7,050 nucleotides of DNA, from positions 1-7,050 of the forward strand of contig CANNLO010000246.1 of the NCBI GenBank assembly GCA_947505055.1, read 5' to 3'. Shown here piece by piece: positions 783 to 7,050 of this stretch; the first letter of the stretch is position 1; every line of letters starts with the position of its first letter. Under the pieces are notes generated by a model that had not been told where the DNA came from, did not search any database, and saw nothing but the letters and a program-made list of their open reading frames with translations. Source of the stretch: Methylococcaceae bacterium (GTDB lineage Bacteria; Pseudomonadota; Gammaproteobacteria; Methylococcales; Methylomonadaceae). Both the position numbers and the translations under genes were made by a program.

Positions 783-1853
783 ATGAAAAGTTGTAAAAAA
801 TGTCTGATTTCTGAAGCCGTGCCAGAAATAACTTTCAACTCTCTGGGGAATTGCAACTTGTGTCAAAATTATCATTATGATAAAGATGCCGAAGAAGAGC
901 CCAGGAAGGCAAGGGAAGCTGATTTTGAGACGGCCATTAAGGATTGTAGAAACAGGGGTGGATACGACTGTTTGGTGCCGGTAAGCGGCGGAAAGGATAG
1001 TATTTATCTTTTATATAAGTTAAAAGTAGAATATGGCTTAAGGGTATTGGCTTTTACAACCGACATTAATATTCCTCCCATCGCGTGGGATAATATTATC
1101 CGTACCTTGGATAAATTGGAAATTGATCACGCGATTTATCGACCATCCAAAAAATTCTATCAAAAAATTTTTAGATTTTTACTAAAAAATCAAGAAGAAA
1201 GAGGCGCTGTTTATACAGTTTCTTATGTATACGCACCTTTGTTTGAAGGAGATGCCATTAAATTGGCCATCGAAAAAAATATTCCCTTGGTGCTTGCCGG
1301 TTATTCACCTGGGCAGCCAGAACCGGAGAGAATGCTTTACGAGTTTTCCAGAAAGCTGATTTCTGAAATAGACTGGACACCACCTGCATTAAAAGCCTGT
1401 GCCGATTTTGACGCCCAAGAGCTATCGCGTTTTTTTAATCCAAATAATTATCCTAAAGGGACTCAATTCCCACGCTACTTAGCCCCTTATCACGCTTGGC
1501 AATATAACCAGGAAGAAATTATGCGCAAAGTCGTTGAGCTGGGTCTGGTCAAATCCGGCAAATATGCCAGCCCCATTTTTAGCAATTATCCAATCAATTG
1601 GTTGTTGATGTATTCTGATTTGAAGCATTTTGGCTATAACCCTTATCTTCCAGAGTTTGCAACTTTGATACGTGAGGGTAAAGCCAATCTTCAGCAGTGG
1701 AAATTATTGTTACCCATTATTGACTTCATGATAAGACATAAAGTATTTTTGGGTAAAGAAGTTAAAACAAGTCTTCAGTGGCTTGAAATGTCGGAAGATG
1801 AACTGGTTATTAATCAACCCAAAGGCGTATACGATCCACCTTTAACAACCTAA
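783..1853 (+). CDS. PP-loop ATP pyrophosphatase, N-acetyl sugar amidotransferase-like
   Basis: This is a 356-residue cytoplasmic enzyme of the PP-loop (N-type ATP pyrophosphatase) superfamily. The ATP-binding signature SGGKDS is at residues 68-73, following a hydrophobic strand (DCLVPV). The N-terminus carries two Cys pairs, CKKC (4-7) and CNLC (24-27), a likely zinc ribbon as seen in the WbpG/N-acetyl sugar amidotransferase branch. Members of the superfamily adenylate a carbonyl or carboxyl oxygen and let a nitrogen or sulfur nucleophile displace AMP. In the sugar amidotransferase branch, ammonia from a partner glutaminase makes an acetamidino sugar. No glutaminase domain is visible in the protein or nearby, so the exact reaction is open. 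The ATG at 783 has GGTGGA at 774-779 as a somewhat close Shine-Dalgarno sequence. The stop is 10 bases before the next start, so the gene is probably co-transcribed with the ligase. Superfamily is secure; substrate is not. Confidence 0.82.
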   Translation: MKSCKKCLISEAVPEITFNSLGNCNLCQNYHYDKDAEEEPRKAREADFETAIKDCRNRGGYDCLVPVSGGKDSIYLLYKLKVEYGLRVLAFTTDINIPPIAWDNIIRTLDKLEIDHAIYRPSKKFYQKIFRFLLKNQEERGAVYTVSYVYAPLFEGDAIKLAIEKNIPLVLAGYSPGQPEPERMLYEFSRKLISEIDWTPPALKACADFDAQELSRFFNPNNYPKGTQFPRYLAPYHAWQYNQEEIMRKVVELGLVKSGKYASPIFSNYPINWLLMYSDLKHFGYNPYLPEFATLIREGKANLQQWKLLLPIIDFMIRHKVFLGKEVKTSLQWLEMSEDELVINQPKGVYDPPLTT

Positions 1854-1858
1854 AGAGG
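1854..1858 (+). promoter_or_regulatory. Ribosome binding site fixing the ligase start
   Basis: AGAGG lies five bases before ATG 1864. An in-frame GTG at 1858 overlaps this Shine-Dalgarno sequence and has no ribosome site of its own, so ATG 1864 is preferred. Confidence 0.75.
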
Positions 1859-1863
1859 TGAGT

Positions 1864-3642
1864 ATGATTGATCAACACTCGCTACCTGAGCTGTTAAAAG
1901 CCAGGGCAAGGGAAACGCCACAAGAAGTTGCGCAGTGGTTTCTCGATAATGAAGGTGGTTGGTTATCGATAAGTTTTCATGGTTTCTATCAGGAGGTCGT
2001 TGATTTAGCGTGGAAATTAAAAGCACTGGGCATTAATAAAGGCGATGTTATTGCAATTATGGCAGCGACAGGGCGCCAATGGGAATTGATTCATCATGCC
2101 ATTTTATCTCTGGGCGGTGTAGTTGTTGGTATTGATCCAGGAGAAATACCCGGGCAATTGGAAGCAATCGTAAACATTGCGGGTATTCAAACCTTGGTAA
2201 TTGATCGTTTGGAACGGCTCGACAAATTCGACGAAGACATAAAAGCGCAGTTTAAATTAATTATCACTTTTGACGAAAAGGCTATCGAAAGTGAAAGTGC
2301 AAAAGCGATATTTATCAATATTCCCAATAGACAGGCTGGAGAACTGAAAAAAAAACCACTACCTGACGTAGTAAATCCCGAAGATGTTGCAACCATTATA
2401 TTTACTTCCGGAACGACAGGCGCACCAAAAGGCATTGCCTACCGGCATGATCAAATTATTGCAGCCGTCGACGCAATTTTACAAACTTATCCGGAACTTG
2501 CCCAATTACCTTGCCATTTGGCTTGTTGGTTGCCGCTTTCTAACCTGTTTCAGCGAATGGTTAATTTGTGTGCAATCGCCAGTGGCGCCGAAGTTTACTT
2601 CGTTGAGCAACCGCAAAAAATTATTGACTATCTCCCGCAAATTAACCCGCACCTATTTATTGCTGTTCCCCGTTTTTATGAAAAACTTTATCAGGGTTTT
2701 GAGGTTGAGCTGAATCAGAAGCCGGAAATAGTTGTCCAATGCCTTCGGTATTGTTTGATCGCAGGCGAAAGTAATTCTCTGATAGGCAAGCTATTCAGGA
2801 AAATTAATTCTCACCTTTTCAAGTCGTTCACGGCGTTATTTGGCAGTAATATTCGATATTTGGCTAGTGGTTCTGCTCCAATGCCGTTGTGGTTGTTAAA
2901 ACGTTTTGATGCGATGGGTTTGTTGATTCTCGAAGCTTATGGATTGAGCGAAAACGTAGTGCCTATTGCAGCCAATCGGCCTACAGCTTACCGATTGGGT
3001 ACAGTTGGAAAAGCCTTGAAAGGTAATTCCATAATACTGGCTGAAGATGGTGAATTACTGGTAAAGGGCATAGGTGTTTTTAATGGCTATTTGAAAGATC
3101 AGCAGCATGATCACAGTCTAAGTAAGGATGGTTATTTAGCGAGCGGTGATTATGCGGAAATTGATTCACAAGGTTTTATTCATCTAACTGCACGTAAATC
3201 GGAAGTGTTTAAAACATCAACAGGGCGAAAAATAGCGCCTGTTGAAATTGAGGCACTGCTTCATCATGACTTTAGGGTTGAACACGCGGTCGTTTTTGGT
3301 GAAAGCAGAAAGTTTCTGGTTACCTTAATTACTGTCGGTGCTTCACTATCTAATAATGAAGCTGAGACCATTGCGTATGCGCAAAAAATAGCGACGGCAT
3401 TGGCGCAATGCATATCAGATTTACCGGAATATAAGCGGCCTGTGGGGGTGGTTTTATGTTTTAGAAACCTTTCTATTGAGCAGCAAGAGCTGACGGGTAA
3501 CCTGAAGATCCGGCGCAAGGCTATTCAGCAGAATTATGGGGTATGGATAGATGAGTTGTATAACGCCTTGGACGATCCTCAATCAGTTATACATCGCCAG
3601 CCTTTATTGATTGACCCCAAAATTGTGTTGCTGAAGCTTTAG
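1864..3642 (+). CDS. AMP-binding acyl-adenylating ligase (long-chain acyl-CoA synthetase-like)
   Basis: A 592-residue member of the ANL superfamily (acyl-CoA synthetases, peptide-synthetase adenylation domains, luciferases). Such enzymes activate a carboxylic acid with ATP to an acyl-AMP and pass it to a thiol, usually CoA or a carrier protein. Numbering from ATG 1864, the phosphate loop TSGTTGAPKG is at 181-190, EAYGLSE at 357-363, the ribose-binding Asp in GDYAEID at 428-434, the hinge region TARKSEVFKTSTGRKIAP at 442-459, and the catalytic lysine in LTGNLKIRRK at K548. All core motifs are intact. The length and the TARKSE...SGRK-like and LT.xLKIRR forms are closest to long-chain fatty acyl-CoA synthetases of the FadD15/FAA type. 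No carrier-protein or reductase domain is fused. It sits 10 bases behind the PP-loop gene and 50 bases ahead of the SDR gene, suggesting a shared transcript and a joint pathway. Chain length of the substrate is unknown. Confidence 0.9.
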   Translation: MIDQHSLPELLKARARETPQEVAQWFLDNEGGWLSISFHGFYQEVVDLAWKLKALGINKGDVIAIMAATGRQWELIHHAILSLGGVVVGIDPGEIPGQLEAIVNIAGIQTLVIDRLERLDKFDEDIKAQFKLIITFDEKAIESESAKAIFINIPNRQAGELKKKPLPDVVNPEDVATIIFTSGTTGAPKGIAYRHDQIIAAVDAILQTYPELAQLPCHLACWLPLSNLFQRMVNLCAIASGAEVYFVEQPQKIIDYLPQINPHLFIAVPRFYEKLYQGFEVELNQKPEIVVQCLRYCLIAGESNSLIGKLFRKINSHLFKSFTALFGSNIRYLASGSAPMPLWLLKRFDAMGLLILEAYGLSENVVPIAANRPTAYRLGTVGKALKGNSIILAEDGELLVKGIGVFNGYLKDQQHDHSLSKDGYLASGDYAEIDSQGFIHLTARKSEVFKTSTGRKIAPVEIEALLHHDFRVEHAVVFGESRKFLVTLITVGASLSNNEAETIAYAQKIATALAQCISDLPEYKRPVGVVLCFRNLSIEQQELTGNLKIRRKAIQQNYGVWIDELYNALDDPQSVIHRQPLLIDPKIVLLKL

Positions 3643-3680
3643 CTTTAGTATCCTTTAATCTAAAAAATTATATTGTAATT

Positions 3681-3686
3681 AAGGTG
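3681..3686 (+). promoter_or_regulatory. Ribosome binding site fixing the SDR start
   Basis: AAGGTG is six bases before ATG 3693. The in-frame GTG at 3684 is part of this site, as in the ligase gene, so translation most likely begins at 3693 (MAKKYFVTG). Confidence 0.7.
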
Positions 3687-3692
3687 CTTCTA

Positions 3693-4817
3693 ATGGCAAA
3701 AAAATATTTTGTGACGGGTGCGACCGGTGCTATTGGGAGCGCATTGATTCCCCTGTTGCTGGAAGATCAAAATAATCAGGTTTGGGCGCTTATGCGTGCG
3801 GATTCTTGCGATCATCTAACAAAGCGATTGGAAGAGCTGATTACTTTTTGGGAAATGGATTGTGATCAGGCGCAAGATGCGCGGCGGCGAATTATCCCGT
3901 TACAGGGTGATACTGATCAAAGTAAATTTGCTTTATCTGAGGGTGTTTATACAGAAATAGCCAGTCAATGCACCCATATTATTCATTGCGCAGGCGTGGT
4001 AAGAATGAATTTACCGCTGGCAGTGGCGCGGCGGCATGCGCTTGGTTCCGCGCAAAACATCGTTGAACTGGCGTTAGCCTGCCAGGCATCTGGGTCATTG
4101 CAAAAAATTGAATACGTTAGCACAGTTGGAGTGGCTGGCAGGATGTCCGGCATAGTGCCGGAAACCTGGATTACCCAACCCAGGGAATTTCATAATACTT
4201 ATGAGCAATCCAAGGCAGAAGCCGAGGATTATTTACGTGAGCAAATTGAGCGACACAATTTGCCTGTGACTGTGCATCGGCCGAGCATGGTGGTAGGCGA
4301 TTCAAAAACAGGCAAAATCATTCATTATCAGATTTTTTACCATATCTGTGAGTTTTTGACGGGTAACAGGACTTTTGGTTTGCTGCCGTTTGTGGGTTCA
4401 GCGGTACTGGATACTGTGCCCGTGGATTATGTTGCTCAGGTTATTAAGTTCTGTTCAGGCCGTGAGGAGATGGCGGGGGAAATTATGCACTTATGCTCGG
4501 GTTATGATGCTATCAAATTAACCGAGTTAAGGTTGCTTGTTAGGAAGATGCTGAAGCAGCATGGTAGAAGATTGCCGGTATTGATTCCGTTACCGGTAGA
4601 GCTTTTTAATGTATTGATAAAGTGGGTCACGCCGCTGTTGAGTGCGGACTTGCAACGGGCTGTTAAGACCGTTCCCTATTTTCTGGATTATTTGGGGGAT
4701 AAACAGATATTCGATAATAGCGGTACTTTGCTTTTGCTAAAAAGTCAATTGGAGGAAAGCTATTCAATGAGTAATTGGGATTATCTTGTTAATGTTTTAA
4801 AAAGTTATTTGGACTAA
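3693..4817 (+). CDS. Extended SDR, thioester reductase / fatty acyl-CoA reductase-like (NAD_binding_4 type)
   Basis: A 374-residue NAD(P)-dependent oxidoreductase. The Rossmann dinucleotide motif GATGAIG is at residues 9-15, right after the first strand (KYFVT). The catalytic set is ST at 143-144 (EYVSTVGVAG) with Y170 and K174 in YEQSK. HRPSMVVGDSKTG after the active site is typical of the male-sterility/thioester-reductase branch, which reduces acyl thioesters (CoA or carrier bound) to aldehydes or alcohols; related extended SDRs act on sugars or steroids. The C-terminal third has hydrophobic stretches (VLIPLPVELFNVLIKWVTPLL) that may hold the acyl chain or touch the membrane. Position immediately after an acyl-adenylating ligase fits a ligase-reductase pair, comparable in logic to carboxylic acid reductases but on separate proteins. 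It is the last gene of the + strand set. The general fold is sure; the thioester substrate is inferred. Confidence 0.82.
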   Translation: MAKKYFVTGATGAIGSALIPLLLEDQNNQVWALMRADSCDHLTKRLEELITFWEMDCDQAQDARRRIIPLQGDTDQSKFALSEGVYTEIASQCTHIIHCAGVVRMNLPLAVARRHALGSAQNIVELALACQASGSLQKIEYVSTVGVAGRMSGIVPETWITQPREFHNTYEQSKAEAEDYLREQIERHNLPVTVHRPSMVVGDSKTGKIIHYQIFYHICEFLTGNRTFGLLPFVGSAVLDTVPVDYVAQVIKFCSGREEMAGEIMHLCSGYDAIKLTELRLLVRKMLKQHGRRLPVLIPLPVELFNVLIKWVTPLLSADLQRAVKTVPYFLDYLGDKQIFDNSGTLLLLKSQLEESYSMSNWDYLVNVLKSYLD

Positions 4818-4848
4818 ATTTATACAAAGGCTGTATATCCATAAATAA

Positions 4849-4883
4849 AACCACCTATAGAATACAAGAAACCATAGGTGGTT
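4849..4883 (-). terminator. Intrinsic terminator between convergent genes
   Basis: AACCACCTAT (4849-4858) is the exact complement of ATAGGTGGTT (4874-4883), a 10-bp stem with a 15-base loop. Read on the - strand the stem is followed by TTTATTTAT, so it serves the PEP-CTERM gene, which stops 24 bases earlier. On the + strand it follows the SDR stop by 31 bases but is trailed by AAAATG, so it is a weaker terminator in that direction. Confidence 0.75.
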
Positions 4884-4906
4884 AAAATGAGTGTTATATA
4901 TAACGC

Positions 4907-5767
4907 TTATGCATTTATGCTAGATGTGTTTTTGCGACGACTTGTAAAGCCCAATCCTATAAGGCCTGCACCGATTAAAAATAGGCTGGATGGTTCAGGT
5001 ACATTGTTAGTCTGAAATACTGTTGATCCTTGATCATCTTGGAAATTTACCGTTTGTATTCCTGTTGAGTAAACAGCCGTAGTACTTAAAAATTTAGCTG
5101 ACGCTGTAGTTATCGTTAAGTATTGAAGTGCATTGACTATAGACGCGCCGCTTGCATCACGTATCCAAGCATCGCAATTGGTAGTGCAAGGAGCGATTGT
5201 ATTATTAATGGCAGCTATTAGCGCTACATCACCTATTGCTTGTCCGACAGCAAATTGAATAGCGGTTGCACCGCCGGCAATGAAACTCAGAGAGCTAATA
5301 TTCGTGCCGGTGCCTGGAGTACCCGAAATGAACGCGGCATCGCCATACAGGTTGATGATGCCAGAGGTAAATTGTACATCAAATTGTGTATTCAAAACGT
5401 TGTTGAGCGTGTTATCTGCATTTATAGAAATAGGATTTGTGATGTTTGCAAATACACCATTAAGTTGCACGTCTAATCGGTAATTTCCAACAAGATCAAA
5501 ACTTGTTGGACCGCCACCTAGTGATGAGCTAGAGACATAAAAGCTAACTATTTCAGTAAAAGTATCATCACCTGCCGTCATTGTTTTATCGGCACCCAAA
5601 TTTTGAGTTGCGCTGTAAGATCCAGTAGTTGAAGTCAAGTCAAGTTGATCGGTTGTTACAAAAGAGGAAGTTTCAGGATTCCAGAATTGTAATATATCTG
5701 CCTGCGCGTTTGCCAGTGGTAACGAGAGCAAGGCGGCGCTTATGATTAAGGCTTTAGTTGTTTTCAT
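4907..5767 (-). CDS. PEP-CTERM sorting domain protein, secreted, function unknown
   Basis: A 286-residue exported protein. It starts with a Sec signal peptide (MKTTKALIISAALLSLPLANAQA, likely cut near A23 before DILQFW). It ends with a complete PEP-CTERM tail: VPEPSS at 256-261, hydrophobic LFLIGAGLIGLGF to about 274, and basic RRK at 277-279. Exosortase recognises such tails at the inner membrane; the mature protein is released or attached to the extracellular matrix. The middle is rich in Ser, Thr, Asn, Gly and beta-branched residues with no enzyme motif, plus a lone Cys pair C194/C198 that could form a disulfide. An architecture similar to flocculation-linked PepA-type proteins is possible but not demonstrated. 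ATG 5767 is chosen over an upstream in-frame TTG at 5803 because GGAGA lies six bases before it and the sigma-54 promoter predicts transcription starting near 5802. Confidence 0.9.
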   Translation of the reverse strand: MKTTKALIISAALLSLPLANAQADILQFWNPETSSFVTTDQLDLTSTTGSYSATQNLGADKTMTAGDDTFTEIVSFYVSSSSLGGGPTSFDLVGNYRLDVQLNGVFANITNPISINADNTLNNVLNTQFDVQFTSGIINLYGDAAFISGTPGTGTNISSLSFIAGGATAIQFAVGQAIGDVALIAAINNTIAPCTTNCDAWIRDASGASIVNALQYLTITTASAKFLSTTAVYSTGIQTVNFQDDQGSTVFQTNNVPEPSSLFLIGAGLIGLGFTSRRKNTSSINA

Positions 5768-5773
5768 AGTAGT

Positions 5774-5778
5774 TCTCC
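5774..5778 (-). promoter_or_regulatory. Ribosome binding site of the PEP-CTERM gene
   Basis: GGAGA on the - strand, six bases before ATG 5767. It lies inside the longer frame that a TTG start at 5803 would give, and so decides the start. Confidence 0.8.
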
Positions 5779-5813
5779 AAGATTTATTATTAATGTACTT
5801 CAATAATCATATA

Positions 5814-5828
5814 GCATTAATTATGCCA
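5814..5828 (-). promoter_or_regulatory. Sigma-54 (RpoN) -24/-12 promoter of the PEP-CTERM gene
   Basis: On the - strand the sequence reads TGGCATAATTAATGC, followed by T. The invariant GG and GC are separated by exactly 10 bases, as sigma-54 demands, and TGGCAT-N5-ATGCT is close to the consensus TGGCAC-N5-TTGCW. The predicted start point is about 12 bases downstream, near 5802, giving a leader of roughly 35 bases with a good ribosome site. Established work on PEP-CTERM systems links such genes to RpoN and the PrsK/PrsR two-component pair, so a sigma-54 promoter here fits the family. Activator genes are not in the window. Confidence 0.75.
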
Positions 5829-6057
5829 GCCTTGCTTGACAGAACTTTTGTGTGGCTAAGAATAGCTATTACATTGGCTTTTGAGCGTTGCAAAAATTTA
5901 AATGCATCTTTGTGCTTGTAAGACTCGATTGATCTTAAATTGAGCCGGCTTTCTGTCATCGCCTCTGGCAATAGGCTATACACGCCGCGCCCGTTCGTCA
6001 TTGAGTTAAGCATCACTCAGCCCGGCATTTGTCGCCACGAGGTATTGGGTTGAGCAT
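5829..6057. other. Upstream region of the PEP-CTERM gene, no gene seen
   Basis: These 229 bases lie between the sigma-54 promoter and the first repeat. A short open frame on the - strand (6016 to 5807) runs through the promoter and has no ribosome site or recognisable motif. I see no RNA gene. The stretch would be the DNA looped out if an activator bound the dyads beyond 6082. Confidence 0.5.
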
Positions 6058-6214
6058 TAATTTTATCGCTTAAATTATAAAGTGTAAAAAATCCTGACAC
6101 CTAAGTTTGCAGGTTGAGCTATGTAGCGCGTAACCAGGCGTGGCGGGCTACAACTGACGCCTGATCGAATCCACGGAAATGCCTGTTTCCCCAGGGCTTG
6201 GGCGGTATTTATGC
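6058..6214. repeat. Repeat A, copy 1 (157 bp)
   Basis: Matches 6320-6476 with 4 differences in 157 bases, at a 262-base offset. It begins with TAATTTTATCGCTTAAATTA, the same 20 bases (one change) that end repeat B. It carries the 19-bp dyad at 6082-6100 and a GTAG-containing imperfect hairpin: TGTAGC (6122-6127) pairs with GCTACA (6147-6152), continued inside by CG/CG and CCA/TGG. CAGGCGT (6135-6141) could instead pair with ACGCCTG (6157-6163). The hairpin is reminiscent of REP elements. No protein function is supported by the frame that crosses it. Confidence 0.9.
6082..6100. promoter_or_regulatory. 19-bp dyad, copy 1 (candidate operator)
   Basis: GTGTAAAAAATCCTGACAC: the half-sites GTGTAA and TGACAC (complement GTGTCA) are inverted repeats with 5 of 6 bases paired around a 7-base centre. 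The same 19 bases recur at 6344 and 6532. Regulator is unknown; binding by a sigma-54 activator such as PrsR is a guess. Confidence 0.45.
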
Positions 6215-6216
6215 TC

Positions 6217-6339
6217 CGAAGCGTGACGGGGTTTGCAACCCCGTCACTCACATTTTGTGAGTCGCTGCGGAGTTCAAACGCTCCGGTCGGGGTTGCAAAC
6301 CCCCGACCGGCCGAGGCAATAATCTTATCGCTTAAATTA
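6217..6339. repeat. Repeat B, copy 1 (123 bp, multi-hairpin)
   Basis: Identical to 6678-6800 except one base. It is GC-rich and highly structured. GTGACGGGGTT (6223-6233) pairs with AACCCCGTCAC (6237-6247) around TGC. ACTCACA (6246-6252) pairs with TGTGAGT (6256-6262), overlapping the first. CGGAG (6268-6272) pairs with CTCCG (6281-6285). CCGGTCGGGG (6283-6292) pairs with CCCCGACCGG (6301-6310). The two strong hairpins share a GGGGTT-TGCAA-CCCC design. The unit ends with TAATCTTATCGCTTAAATTA, which also opens repeat A copy 2. It may be a REP/MITE-like mobile element; no transposase is in the window. Confidence 0.9.
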
Positions 6340-6476
6340 TAAAGTGTAAAAAATCCTGACACCTAAGTTTGCAGATTGAGCTATGTAGCGCGTAACCAGG
6401 CGTGGCGGGCTACAACTGACGCCTGATCGAATCCACGGAAATGCCTGTTTCCCCAAGGCTTGGCCGGTATTTATGC
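6320..6476. repeat. Repeat A, copy 2 (157 bp)
   Basis: Second copy of the unit at 6058-6214, 153 of 157 bases identical. Its first 20 bases are shared with the end of repeat B copy 1. The REP-like hairpin is at 6384-6414 and the dyad at 6344-6362. Differences between copies include GG/AG in the CAGRTTG segment and two changes near the CCCCARGGCTT segment. Confidence 0.9.
6344..6362. promoter_or_regulatory. 19-bp dyad, copy 2 (candidate operator)
   Basis: Identical in all 19 bases to the dyads at 6082 and 6532, and 262 bases from the first. It lies within repeat A copy 2, so identity to copy 1 alone could reflect recent duplication. Confidence 0.45.
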
Positions 6477-6525
6477 CCGCTAACTCGTTTAAATGAAATC
6501 TAACTAGCTGTTTTATTTGTAAATT

Positions 6526-6677
6526 CAAAAAGTGTAAAAAATCCTGACACCCTAAGCTCGCAGATTGGTTCAGATAATGCGCCAACCGATGCTTGTCGTC
6601 CGATTTGCCGGGTTATGGCTAATGCCGACCGATCTATGAAACTGACCGGATATTAAGGGGTTAAGCGGTTTTTTATG
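6526..6677. repeat. Diverged repeat C, related to A at its left end
   Basis: The left 40 bases match repeat A with an inserted C and a few changes: the dyad, then CTAAGCTCGCAGATTGG versus CTAAGTTTGCAGATTGA. The remaining 110 bases do not align with A, though both units end in TTTATGC directly before the repeat B type sequence or its former site. The tail has a weak terminator-like fold on the + strand (ACCG 6645-6648, TTAA/TTAA around GGGG, CGGT 6666-6669, then Ts). Confidence 0.6.
6532..6550. promoter_or_regulatory. 19-bp dyad, copy 3 (candidate operator, divergent context)
   Basis: GTGTAAAAAATCCTGACAC again without a change, although the sequence on both sides differs from repeats A. Conservation in an otherwise diverged unit is the main argument that the dyad itself matters. 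Confidence 0.5.
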
Positions 6678-6800
6678 CGAAGCGTGACGGGGTTTGCAAC
6701 CCCGTCACTCACATTTTGTTAGTCGCTGCGGAGTTCAAACGCTCCGGTCGGGGTTGCAAACCCCCGACCGGCCGAGGCAATAATCTTATCGCTTAAATTA
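6678..6800. repeat. Repeat B, copy 2 (123 bp, multi-hairpin)
   Basis: 122 of 123 bases match copy 1 at a 461-base offset. The strong hairpins are at 6684-6708 and 6744-6771. The only change (G to T at 6720) breaks the small ACTCACA/TGTGAGT hairpin. Homology stops abruptly at 6800, right after CTTAAATTA, and unlike copy 1 no repeat A follows. Confidence 0.9.
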
Positions 6801-6973
6801 AAAGAGACCTTTGCGCGATGGACCTTTATTAGCCCAACAGTAATCCCTCCCTAGTAAATATCTACTAATAAACCATACTCTACTAGTACCTATAATAAGC
6901 GTTAAATTTATCATTGTTCACAGGCATAAAGCATTAGCTTTAATTTTCCATCACTAATTATTTTCCAACTACT
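6801..6973. other. AT-rich leader region of the gene at the right edge
   Basis: No gene is visible. CTAGTA (6851-6856) and TACTAG (6881-6886) form a 6-bp inverted repeat. TATAAT at 6891-6896 would be a perfect sigma-70 -10 box, but no acceptable -35 lies 16-18 bases upstream. AGGCATAAAGCATTAGC (6922-6938) resembles the sigma-54 promoter of the other PEP-CTERM gene, but GG and GC are 12 bases apart instead of 10. The true promoter is undecided. Confidence 0.4.
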
Positions 6974-7050
6974 ATGAATTTTATAAAAAAAATGACTGGA
7001 TGGCTTTTCGTATTGGCACTGGGTGCAATGCCCGGCATAAGTCAGGCTAA
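6974..7050 (+). CDS. Secreted protein with Sec signal peptide (3' partial), possible second PEP-CTERM protein
   Basis: ATG 6974 opens a frame that runs off the window after 25 full codons: MNFIKKMTGWLFVLALGAMPGISQA. This is a compact Sec signal peptide with a basic start (KK at 5-6), a hydrophobic core (WLFVLALGAM) and a plausible cleavage site after SQA. No Shine-Dalgarno sequence is evident (TTTTCCAACTACT precedes the ATG), although AACTACTATGAA repeats the bases around the start of the PEP-CTERM gene at 5767. Short, divergent placement next to a PEP-CTERM gene makes a second exported sorting substrate likely, but the diagnostic C-terminus is outside the window. ATG 6992 (M7) is an alternative start that would remove the basic residues. 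Confidence 0.65.
   Translation, partial: MNFIKKMTGWLFVLALGAMPGISQA

Follow-up and report, generated by a model that had tools for sequence, protein, structure and literature searches.

PEP-CTERM proteins have been tied to flocs and biofilms (PMC9850573, PMC1569441, PMC3333781). The closest described promoters are those of Haft 2006 (PMC1569441), whose text presents a 17 nt motif 1 that has the 3' end TTTACA, is sometimes repeated and is followed by a sigma-54 motif 2 after a spacer of 62.8 nt on average (range 32–92 nt). Of 167 proteobacterial PEP-CTERM genes 99 had the motif upstream, and PrsR was predicted there to be the protein that binds motif 1 before the sigma-54 promoters of these genes. 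A comparable case is DVUA0057 of Desulfovibrio vulgaris, also a response regulator with a predicted control over PEP-CTERM genes; five predicted PEP-CTERM targets were enriched in DAP-chip, and according to a figure legend there is no validated binding-site motif for its regulator group (PMC3333781). In Aquincola tertiaricarbonis the gene pepA is described as RpoN-dependent, with a mapped -24/-12 promoter and an enhancer noted upstream (PMC9850573).

The DNA analysed here, a stretch of 7,050 nucleotides from a Methylococcaceae bacterium (the window), shares with the motif 1/motif 2 promoter and its PrsK-PrsR system, as presented in the 2006 text, a 17 nt motif, the repetition of this motif, a PEP-CTERM gene and a -24/-12 promoter, and the order is also the same, with the sigma-54 element lying between the motif and the start codon of the PEP-CTERM gene. 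It differs in the spacer, which is 254 nt compared to the published 32–92 nt, and in having three perfect boxes together with a proximal box that is at most a half-site, at 60 nt. The locus is an outlier with respect to the geometry found in the family.

Three identical dyads upstream of a PepA-like gene

The left-hand gene (4907–5767, minus strand) encodes a PEP-CTERM protein of 286 aa which in HMM searches scored above the cut-offs of TIGR02595 (25.2, cut-off 16) and PF07589 (30.8, cut-off 20.7) and is PepA-like, resembling the flocculation-associated family NF033554 at a score below its cut-off (58.6 bits, cut-off 80). A PepA-type PEP-CTERM gene with a -24/-12 promoter is common to the window and A. 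tertiaricarbonis (PMC9850573), although the organism is another one and the window protein stays under the family threshold. The sigma-54 promoter TGGCATAATTAATGC is predicted at 5814–5828 (minus strand), 46 nt before the ATG, and agrees with the consensus at 8 of 10 positions. At the left end of the window a cut gene (1–573) belongs to the PEP-CTERM/exosortase-associated acyltransferase family (TIGR03694, above cut-off), consecutive genes at 783–4817 resemble a sugar amidotransferase, an AMP ligase and a thioester reductase, all scoring below the cut-offs of the NCBIfam families listed, and a rightward gene starts near 6973 and is cut by the window end. When searching 4800–7050 for known RNA no Rfam match appeared.

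The 19-mer GTGTAAAAAATCCTGACAC occurs three times without any difference, as the first-pass annotation had observed, at 6082–6100, 6344–6362 and 6532–6550, and no further match with up to three mismatches was found on either strand in the whole window. The count expected by chance is 0.01 per window, and none of 200 shuffles gave three copies. Read leftwards the 19-mer is G-TGTCAGGATTTTTTACA-C, so that each dyad holds the inner 17-mer TGTCAGGATTTTTTACA and points toward the left gene, and the matrix (PWM) score of all three is 34.5 out of a maximum of 35.8. They are referred to below as predicted PrsR-type boxes 1 (GTGTCAGGATTTTTTACAC in gene orientation), 2 and 3, all on the minus strand, and their 17-mers are situated 254, 516 and 704 nt from the -24 element. 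The distance of 254 bases given earlier was reproduced with TGGCATAATTAATGC as the nearest promoter in the reading direction, since counting from its first base (5828) gives 253 bases to the 19-mer and 254 to the 17-mer.

Boxes 1 and 2 are contained in the two copies of repeat A (6054–6214 and 6316–6476), a direct repeat of 161 nt with 97% identity between the copies. Box 3 lies outside repeat A, in the region of a diverged unit B, and the stretch that follows it (6551–6676) was compared by local alignment with the corresponding part of repeat A (6101–6215), giving a score of 37 where the 99th percentile of 1000 shuffles was 33. Judged from this alignment, unit B seems to have separated from repeat A long ago and is its probable homologue. 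Mismatches and gaps are numerous between the two, yet the 19-mer is identical. The argument that a third copy in a unit mostly unlike repeat A speaks for selection on the dyad holds in this respect, and selection is favoured because identical dyads sit between diverged flanks; local gene conversion could be an alternative source of the identity. The further proposal, that the inverted repeat is the site of a dimeric regulator, is supported, except that the dyad is used asymmetrically: elsewhere it nearly always faces one direction.

The box in other genomes

In one scan of a collection of 84,980 species genomes, 44 exact copies of the 19-mer were found at 43 loci outside the window, showing that the dyad is not restricted to the repeats A and C of the window. 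Judging by title the hosts are mostly Gammaproteobacteria, with some Alphaproteobacteria, Rhodoferax, three titled only Proteobacteria and one Acidobacteriales MAG. By arithmetic, random DNA should yield about two exact 19-mers in such a scan and more if AT-rich, so only a few of the 44 sites would be due to chance. Five of them (L013, L014, L019, L030 and L042) are inside an ORF of at least 120 aa on either strand.

The exact sites are often followed, after 60–64 nt, by a -24/-12 promoter and then by a PEP-CTERM-type gene. Promoters were scored against ten positions of what we take to be the sigma-54 consensus. Counting the three boxes of the window, a site with a score of at least 8 was found within 400 nt downstream in 28 of 47 cases and upstream in 6 of 47, and at a score of at least 7 the numbers were 32 and 19 of 47, the full 400 nt of sequence being present at 38 (downstream) and 40 (upstream) of the 44 outside sites. 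A strict pattern for a PEP-type C-terminus was matched by the downstream ORF at 16 of the 44 sites and by the upstream ORF at none, and a loose pattern allowing VPAP and VPLP variants at 25 and 6 respectively, in a set where 10 of the 44 have less than 1500 bases of downstream sequence. At 19 of the 44 sites no PEP-type gene was detected downstream by the loose pattern, and 9 of these have less than 1500 bases on that side.

When allowing up to two mismatches in the 17-mer, 95 matches were obtained versus 7 for the reversed pattern in nine genomes chosen for having the exact dyad (eight Methylococcales and one other gammaproteobacterial MAG, G009). A search for the box together with a promoter in 311 Methylococcales genomes revealed 31 matches with a spacer of 40–70 nt and 48 with a spacer of 71–101 nt, and the reversed-pattern controls gave none in either range. 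A complete ORF within 300 nt was present at 49 of 56 examined sites of this kind, and 37 of these 49 downstream ORFs end in a PEP-type tail by pattern. Among 50 proteins (the 49 together with that of the window) TIGR02595 matched 35 and VPLPA-CTERM 4, at E up to 0.01.

Of PrsR, PrsK and PrsT, the proteins expected to be encoded in a genome with such promoters, PrsR, defined as TIGR02915 above the cut-off of 502.6 bits, was found in 127 of the 311 genomes; among the matches listed, members scored at least 568, a single truncated piece scored 477 and no other regulator exceeded 425. PrsR is present in 46 of the 52 genomes with box and promoter compared to 81 of the 259 others, with a Fisher p of 8.8e-15 that is too small because the genomes are related. 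The six box-positive genomes with no PrsR above the cut-off (G006, G053, G121, G187, G249 and G264) may be incomplete assemblies.

The enrichment near PEP-CTERM genes with -24/-12 promoters that the first-pass annotation had suggested is accordingly seen both in the scan of species genomes and in the 311 Methylococcales genomes. With its 17 nt and the 3' end TTTACA, TGTCAGGATTTTTTACA fits motif 1, the comparison being with the description in the text and not with the logo (PMC1569441). This fit, together with the association with PEP-CTERM genes, sigma-54 promoters and PrsR, supports the guess that the dyad is a PrsR site, most of which had been published already in 2006, and points to PrsR as the protein that would bind the box. 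The 19-mer is a DNA switch box which in many bacteria stands ahead of genes of secreted proteins, and the proteins of this class are probably matrix-building.

Orientation and helical spacing

When the 79 Methylococcales spacers were analysed they fell into five lobes (52–57, 61–65, 71–75, 82–87 and 94–97 nt) with nothing in between. The lobes are one helical turn apart, with a vector strength R of 0.78 near 10.7 bp where the 99.9% level of a jittered null was 0.34; because only spacers of 40–101 nt were searched, this set is silent on boxes further away. A second set of 69 sites, in part the same ones, was drawn from all loci examined and thinned of similar spacers; its vector strength was 0.76 at 10.6. 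The phase is shared by 18 sites at exact-match loci that are not labelled Methylococcales, with a p of about 5e-7 that is too small because L010/L035/L036, L011/L016 and L022/L033 share a MAG or are near-copies. These 18 were picked by hand, leaving out L004, L012, L017 and L024, where the best promoter-like site is 208–343 nt from the box, and for the 7 of the 18 outside the main lobe the agreement in phase has a p of 0.006. Inside the main lobe spacers of 62 nt (10 sites) and 64 nt (12 sites) are common and 63 nt is rare (2 sites).

The orientation of the box is close to fixed. A reversed box 40–70 nt before a promoter was not found in any of 201 genomes of the family, and a hand count in the same list gave 18 forward matches of box and promoter. 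A possible exception is L032, in which a promoter-like site (8/10) is situated 60 nt from the exact box on its opposite side.

A further element, YAANNNNTTGAWW, was found with up to one mismatch and starting at -34 to -30 relative to the -24 element at 32 of the 69 sites, compared to 1.3 on average and 5 at most in 300 sets of shuffled spacers, the pattern having been defined after the profile had been viewed. In windows of five offsets the count peaks at 27 of 69; other positions in the spacer give 0–6 of 69, and those upstream of the box no more than 3 of 69. By lobe the numbers are 2/6, 17/35, 10/20, 3/5 and 0/3. The element, often present some 32 nt ahead of the -24 element, resembles what we take to be the IHF consensus and is a candidate IHF binding site.

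A similar quantisation has been described for the LuxO enhancers of 61 Vibrio qrr genes, with distances to the promoter that group at intervals of about 11 bp (PMC4740811). Like the boxes studied here these are sigma-54 enhancers at helically set distances, and they differ, according to the same source, in the activator, in having tandem sites and in forming loops of about 80–120 bp. No report of helical spacing or of IHF at PEP-CTERM promoters was found in the open-licence literature searched, and a word search of the text of Haft 2006 gave no mention of helical phasing or IHF (PMC1569441). Within the literature searched, the helical lobes, the near-fixed orientation and the IHF-like element roughly 32 nt ahead of the -24 element seem to be new.

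Distant boxes in the window

That an activator could bridge 254 nt, as had been put forward, is reasonable for sigma-54 activators as a group, but the distance is outside the 32–92 nt given in the text of Haft 2006 (PMC1569441) and rare among the loci examined. Additional boxes are in themselves ordinary, since second boxes upstream of the proximal one occur at 37 of 98 promoter-like sites, and such distal copies nearly always accompany a proximal box. Promoters having distant full boxes alone are rare among the examined loci, which mostly come from searches favouring proximal boxes. Of 14 'distal-only' cases listed, the window included, 11 turned out to have a closer canonical promoter as well. 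The remaining cases are L015 (115 nt), the near-copies L017 and L024 (220 nt) and the window; each of the near-copies combines a perfect box at 220 nt with a half-site, TTTTTACA, whose distance from the promoter is 63 nt. At periods of 10.5–10.68, box 1 of the window (254 nt) deviates from the lobes by no more than 0.16 turn, a limit that boxes 2 and 3 both keep to only at a period of 10.5. Inspection of the gaps at other promoters gave no clear phase for their distal copies, and the phase of the distal boxes in the window is for this reason given no weight.

Between the promoter and box 1 no full box was detected within the 253 nt (best matrix score -18.7, shuffle mean -15.7), and the IHF-like element is missing from its usual place before the promoter. 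A possible decayed proximal box (5889–5905, minus strand) retains the right half-site TTTTTGCA only (5889–5896), 60 nt from the -24 element. Simulated spacers contained this half-site, a pattern chosen post hoc, at 60–65 nt in 0.06% of cases, within any of the lobes in 0.36% and at any position in 2.8%, and a proximal box that has decayed to a half-site would be consistent with these numbers. The two closest homologues of the gene at 4907–5767 (38–39% identity) both have the ordinary layout, with spacers of 61 and 62 nt and boxes that differ from the dyad core at two positions. A candidate promoter nearer to the boxes, the degenerate GG-N10-GC site CGGGCTGAGTGATGC 58 nt from box 1, scored 5/10 by hand and was rejected as too weak.

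The gap also holds the decayed C-terminal end of a Y1 transposase gene (5923–6004, minus strand), an intact relative of which, in L084, matches PF01797. We assume the name RAYT for this remnant; of the intact Y1 transposase gene by which a RAYT/REP system is defined, the window contains only this decayed end. Ends of this kind recur in Methylococcales (L084–L095), several apparently being fragments with the rest of the gene absent within 250 nt (e.g. L087, L091, L093 and L094). Repeat C, of 135 nt, is present in two copies with 96% identity, one following box 1 (6208–6342) and one following box 3 (6669–6803), each with two hairpins (6217–6312 and 6678–6772). It is an interspersed REP-like double hairpin of some Methylobacter relatives and has no box inside.

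The reading preferred here, and considered probable, is that the three dyads are PrsR boxes which activate the leftward PepA-like gene from 5814–5828, acting from a distance by looping after decay of the proximal box. The NtrC-type response regulator PrsR, with PrsK as partner kinase, would bind all three. At an ordinary promoter its box would be found some 51–97 nt ahead of the -24 element, with both its helical face and its orientation fixed, and in many cases an IHF-like bend would lie between box and promoter. In the window only a half-site would be left of the proximal box after its decay, and the three boxes that are intact would have been multiplied within REP/RAYT repeat debris 254–704 nt upstream, from where they would contact the sigma-54 polymerase by DNA looping, perhaps aided by the half-site, and so activate the gene at 4907–5767. 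That the distal boxes act on the promoter of this gene is proposed as likely. A broader proposal, in which PrsR promoters across Proteobacteria follow a strict geometry of box, IHF-like bend and helical spacing and the window breaks the rule with a long-range enhancer of three boxes on REP/RAYT debris, is advanced tentatively, as something that may hold but is a little more likely not to.

Given the repeats around it, the dyad could instead be a part of the REP/RAYT system, such as a transposase recognition site or a repeat end, unrelated to PEP-CTERM genes; two of the three copies are after all in repeat A and the RAYT remnant is close by. This is hardly credible, as the genome scans contradict a REP part and find the dyad widespread beside PEP-CTERM genes. 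When the array was run through BLAST against three relatives it gave 7, 24 and 36 matches (G004, G007 and G005), nearly all to repeat C, mostly about 71–83% alike over the length of the repeat, and a few to the dyad or other parts. Repeat A without the dyad gave only matches of 20–24 nt, in 2 of 201 family genomes, and repeat C was present in 5 loci, all of them from the repeat search itself and none from the dyad scan. A crude pattern applied to up to three ORFs per site flagged no RAYT gene near dyads elsewhere.

The main rival accepts the boxes as genuine PrsR-type sites and regards them as relics, moved and multiplied by repeat duplication and RAYT insertion, which have ceased to act on the PEP-CTERM promoter, itself weakly driven or dead. 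A locus where the full proximal box and the IHF-like site are both lacking, where a RAYT remnant occupies the gap and where boxes 1 and 2 belong to a 97% identical duplication would look much like this, but three boxes that stayed perfect despite the diverged flanks of A and B are unexpected for relics, the promoter has kept its 8 of 10 positions, and further boxes are common at ordinary promoters; the relic explanation is on balance judged unlikely. It is much less plausible still that the boxes serve the rightward gene, or both genes, rather than the left one alone. A weak GG-N10-GC site with a score of 7/10, TGGACCTTTATTAGC, does exist on the plus strand at 6819–6833, 268 nt beyond box 3, and L032 possibly uses its box the other way, but the strand of the boxes points left, and both the absence of reversed boxes at 40–70 nt from the 201 family genomes and the excess of promoters scoring at least 8 on the downstream side argue against such a use.

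What deserves attention is the refined geometry and the status of the window as an outlier, the remainder being mostly explained by the prediction of 2006. The clean 17-mer, the preferred orientation, the helical rule and the candidate IHF site make this PrsR prediction exactly and cheaply testable, and the locus that breaks the rule is a natural experiment on how far a PrsR enhancer can be displaced.
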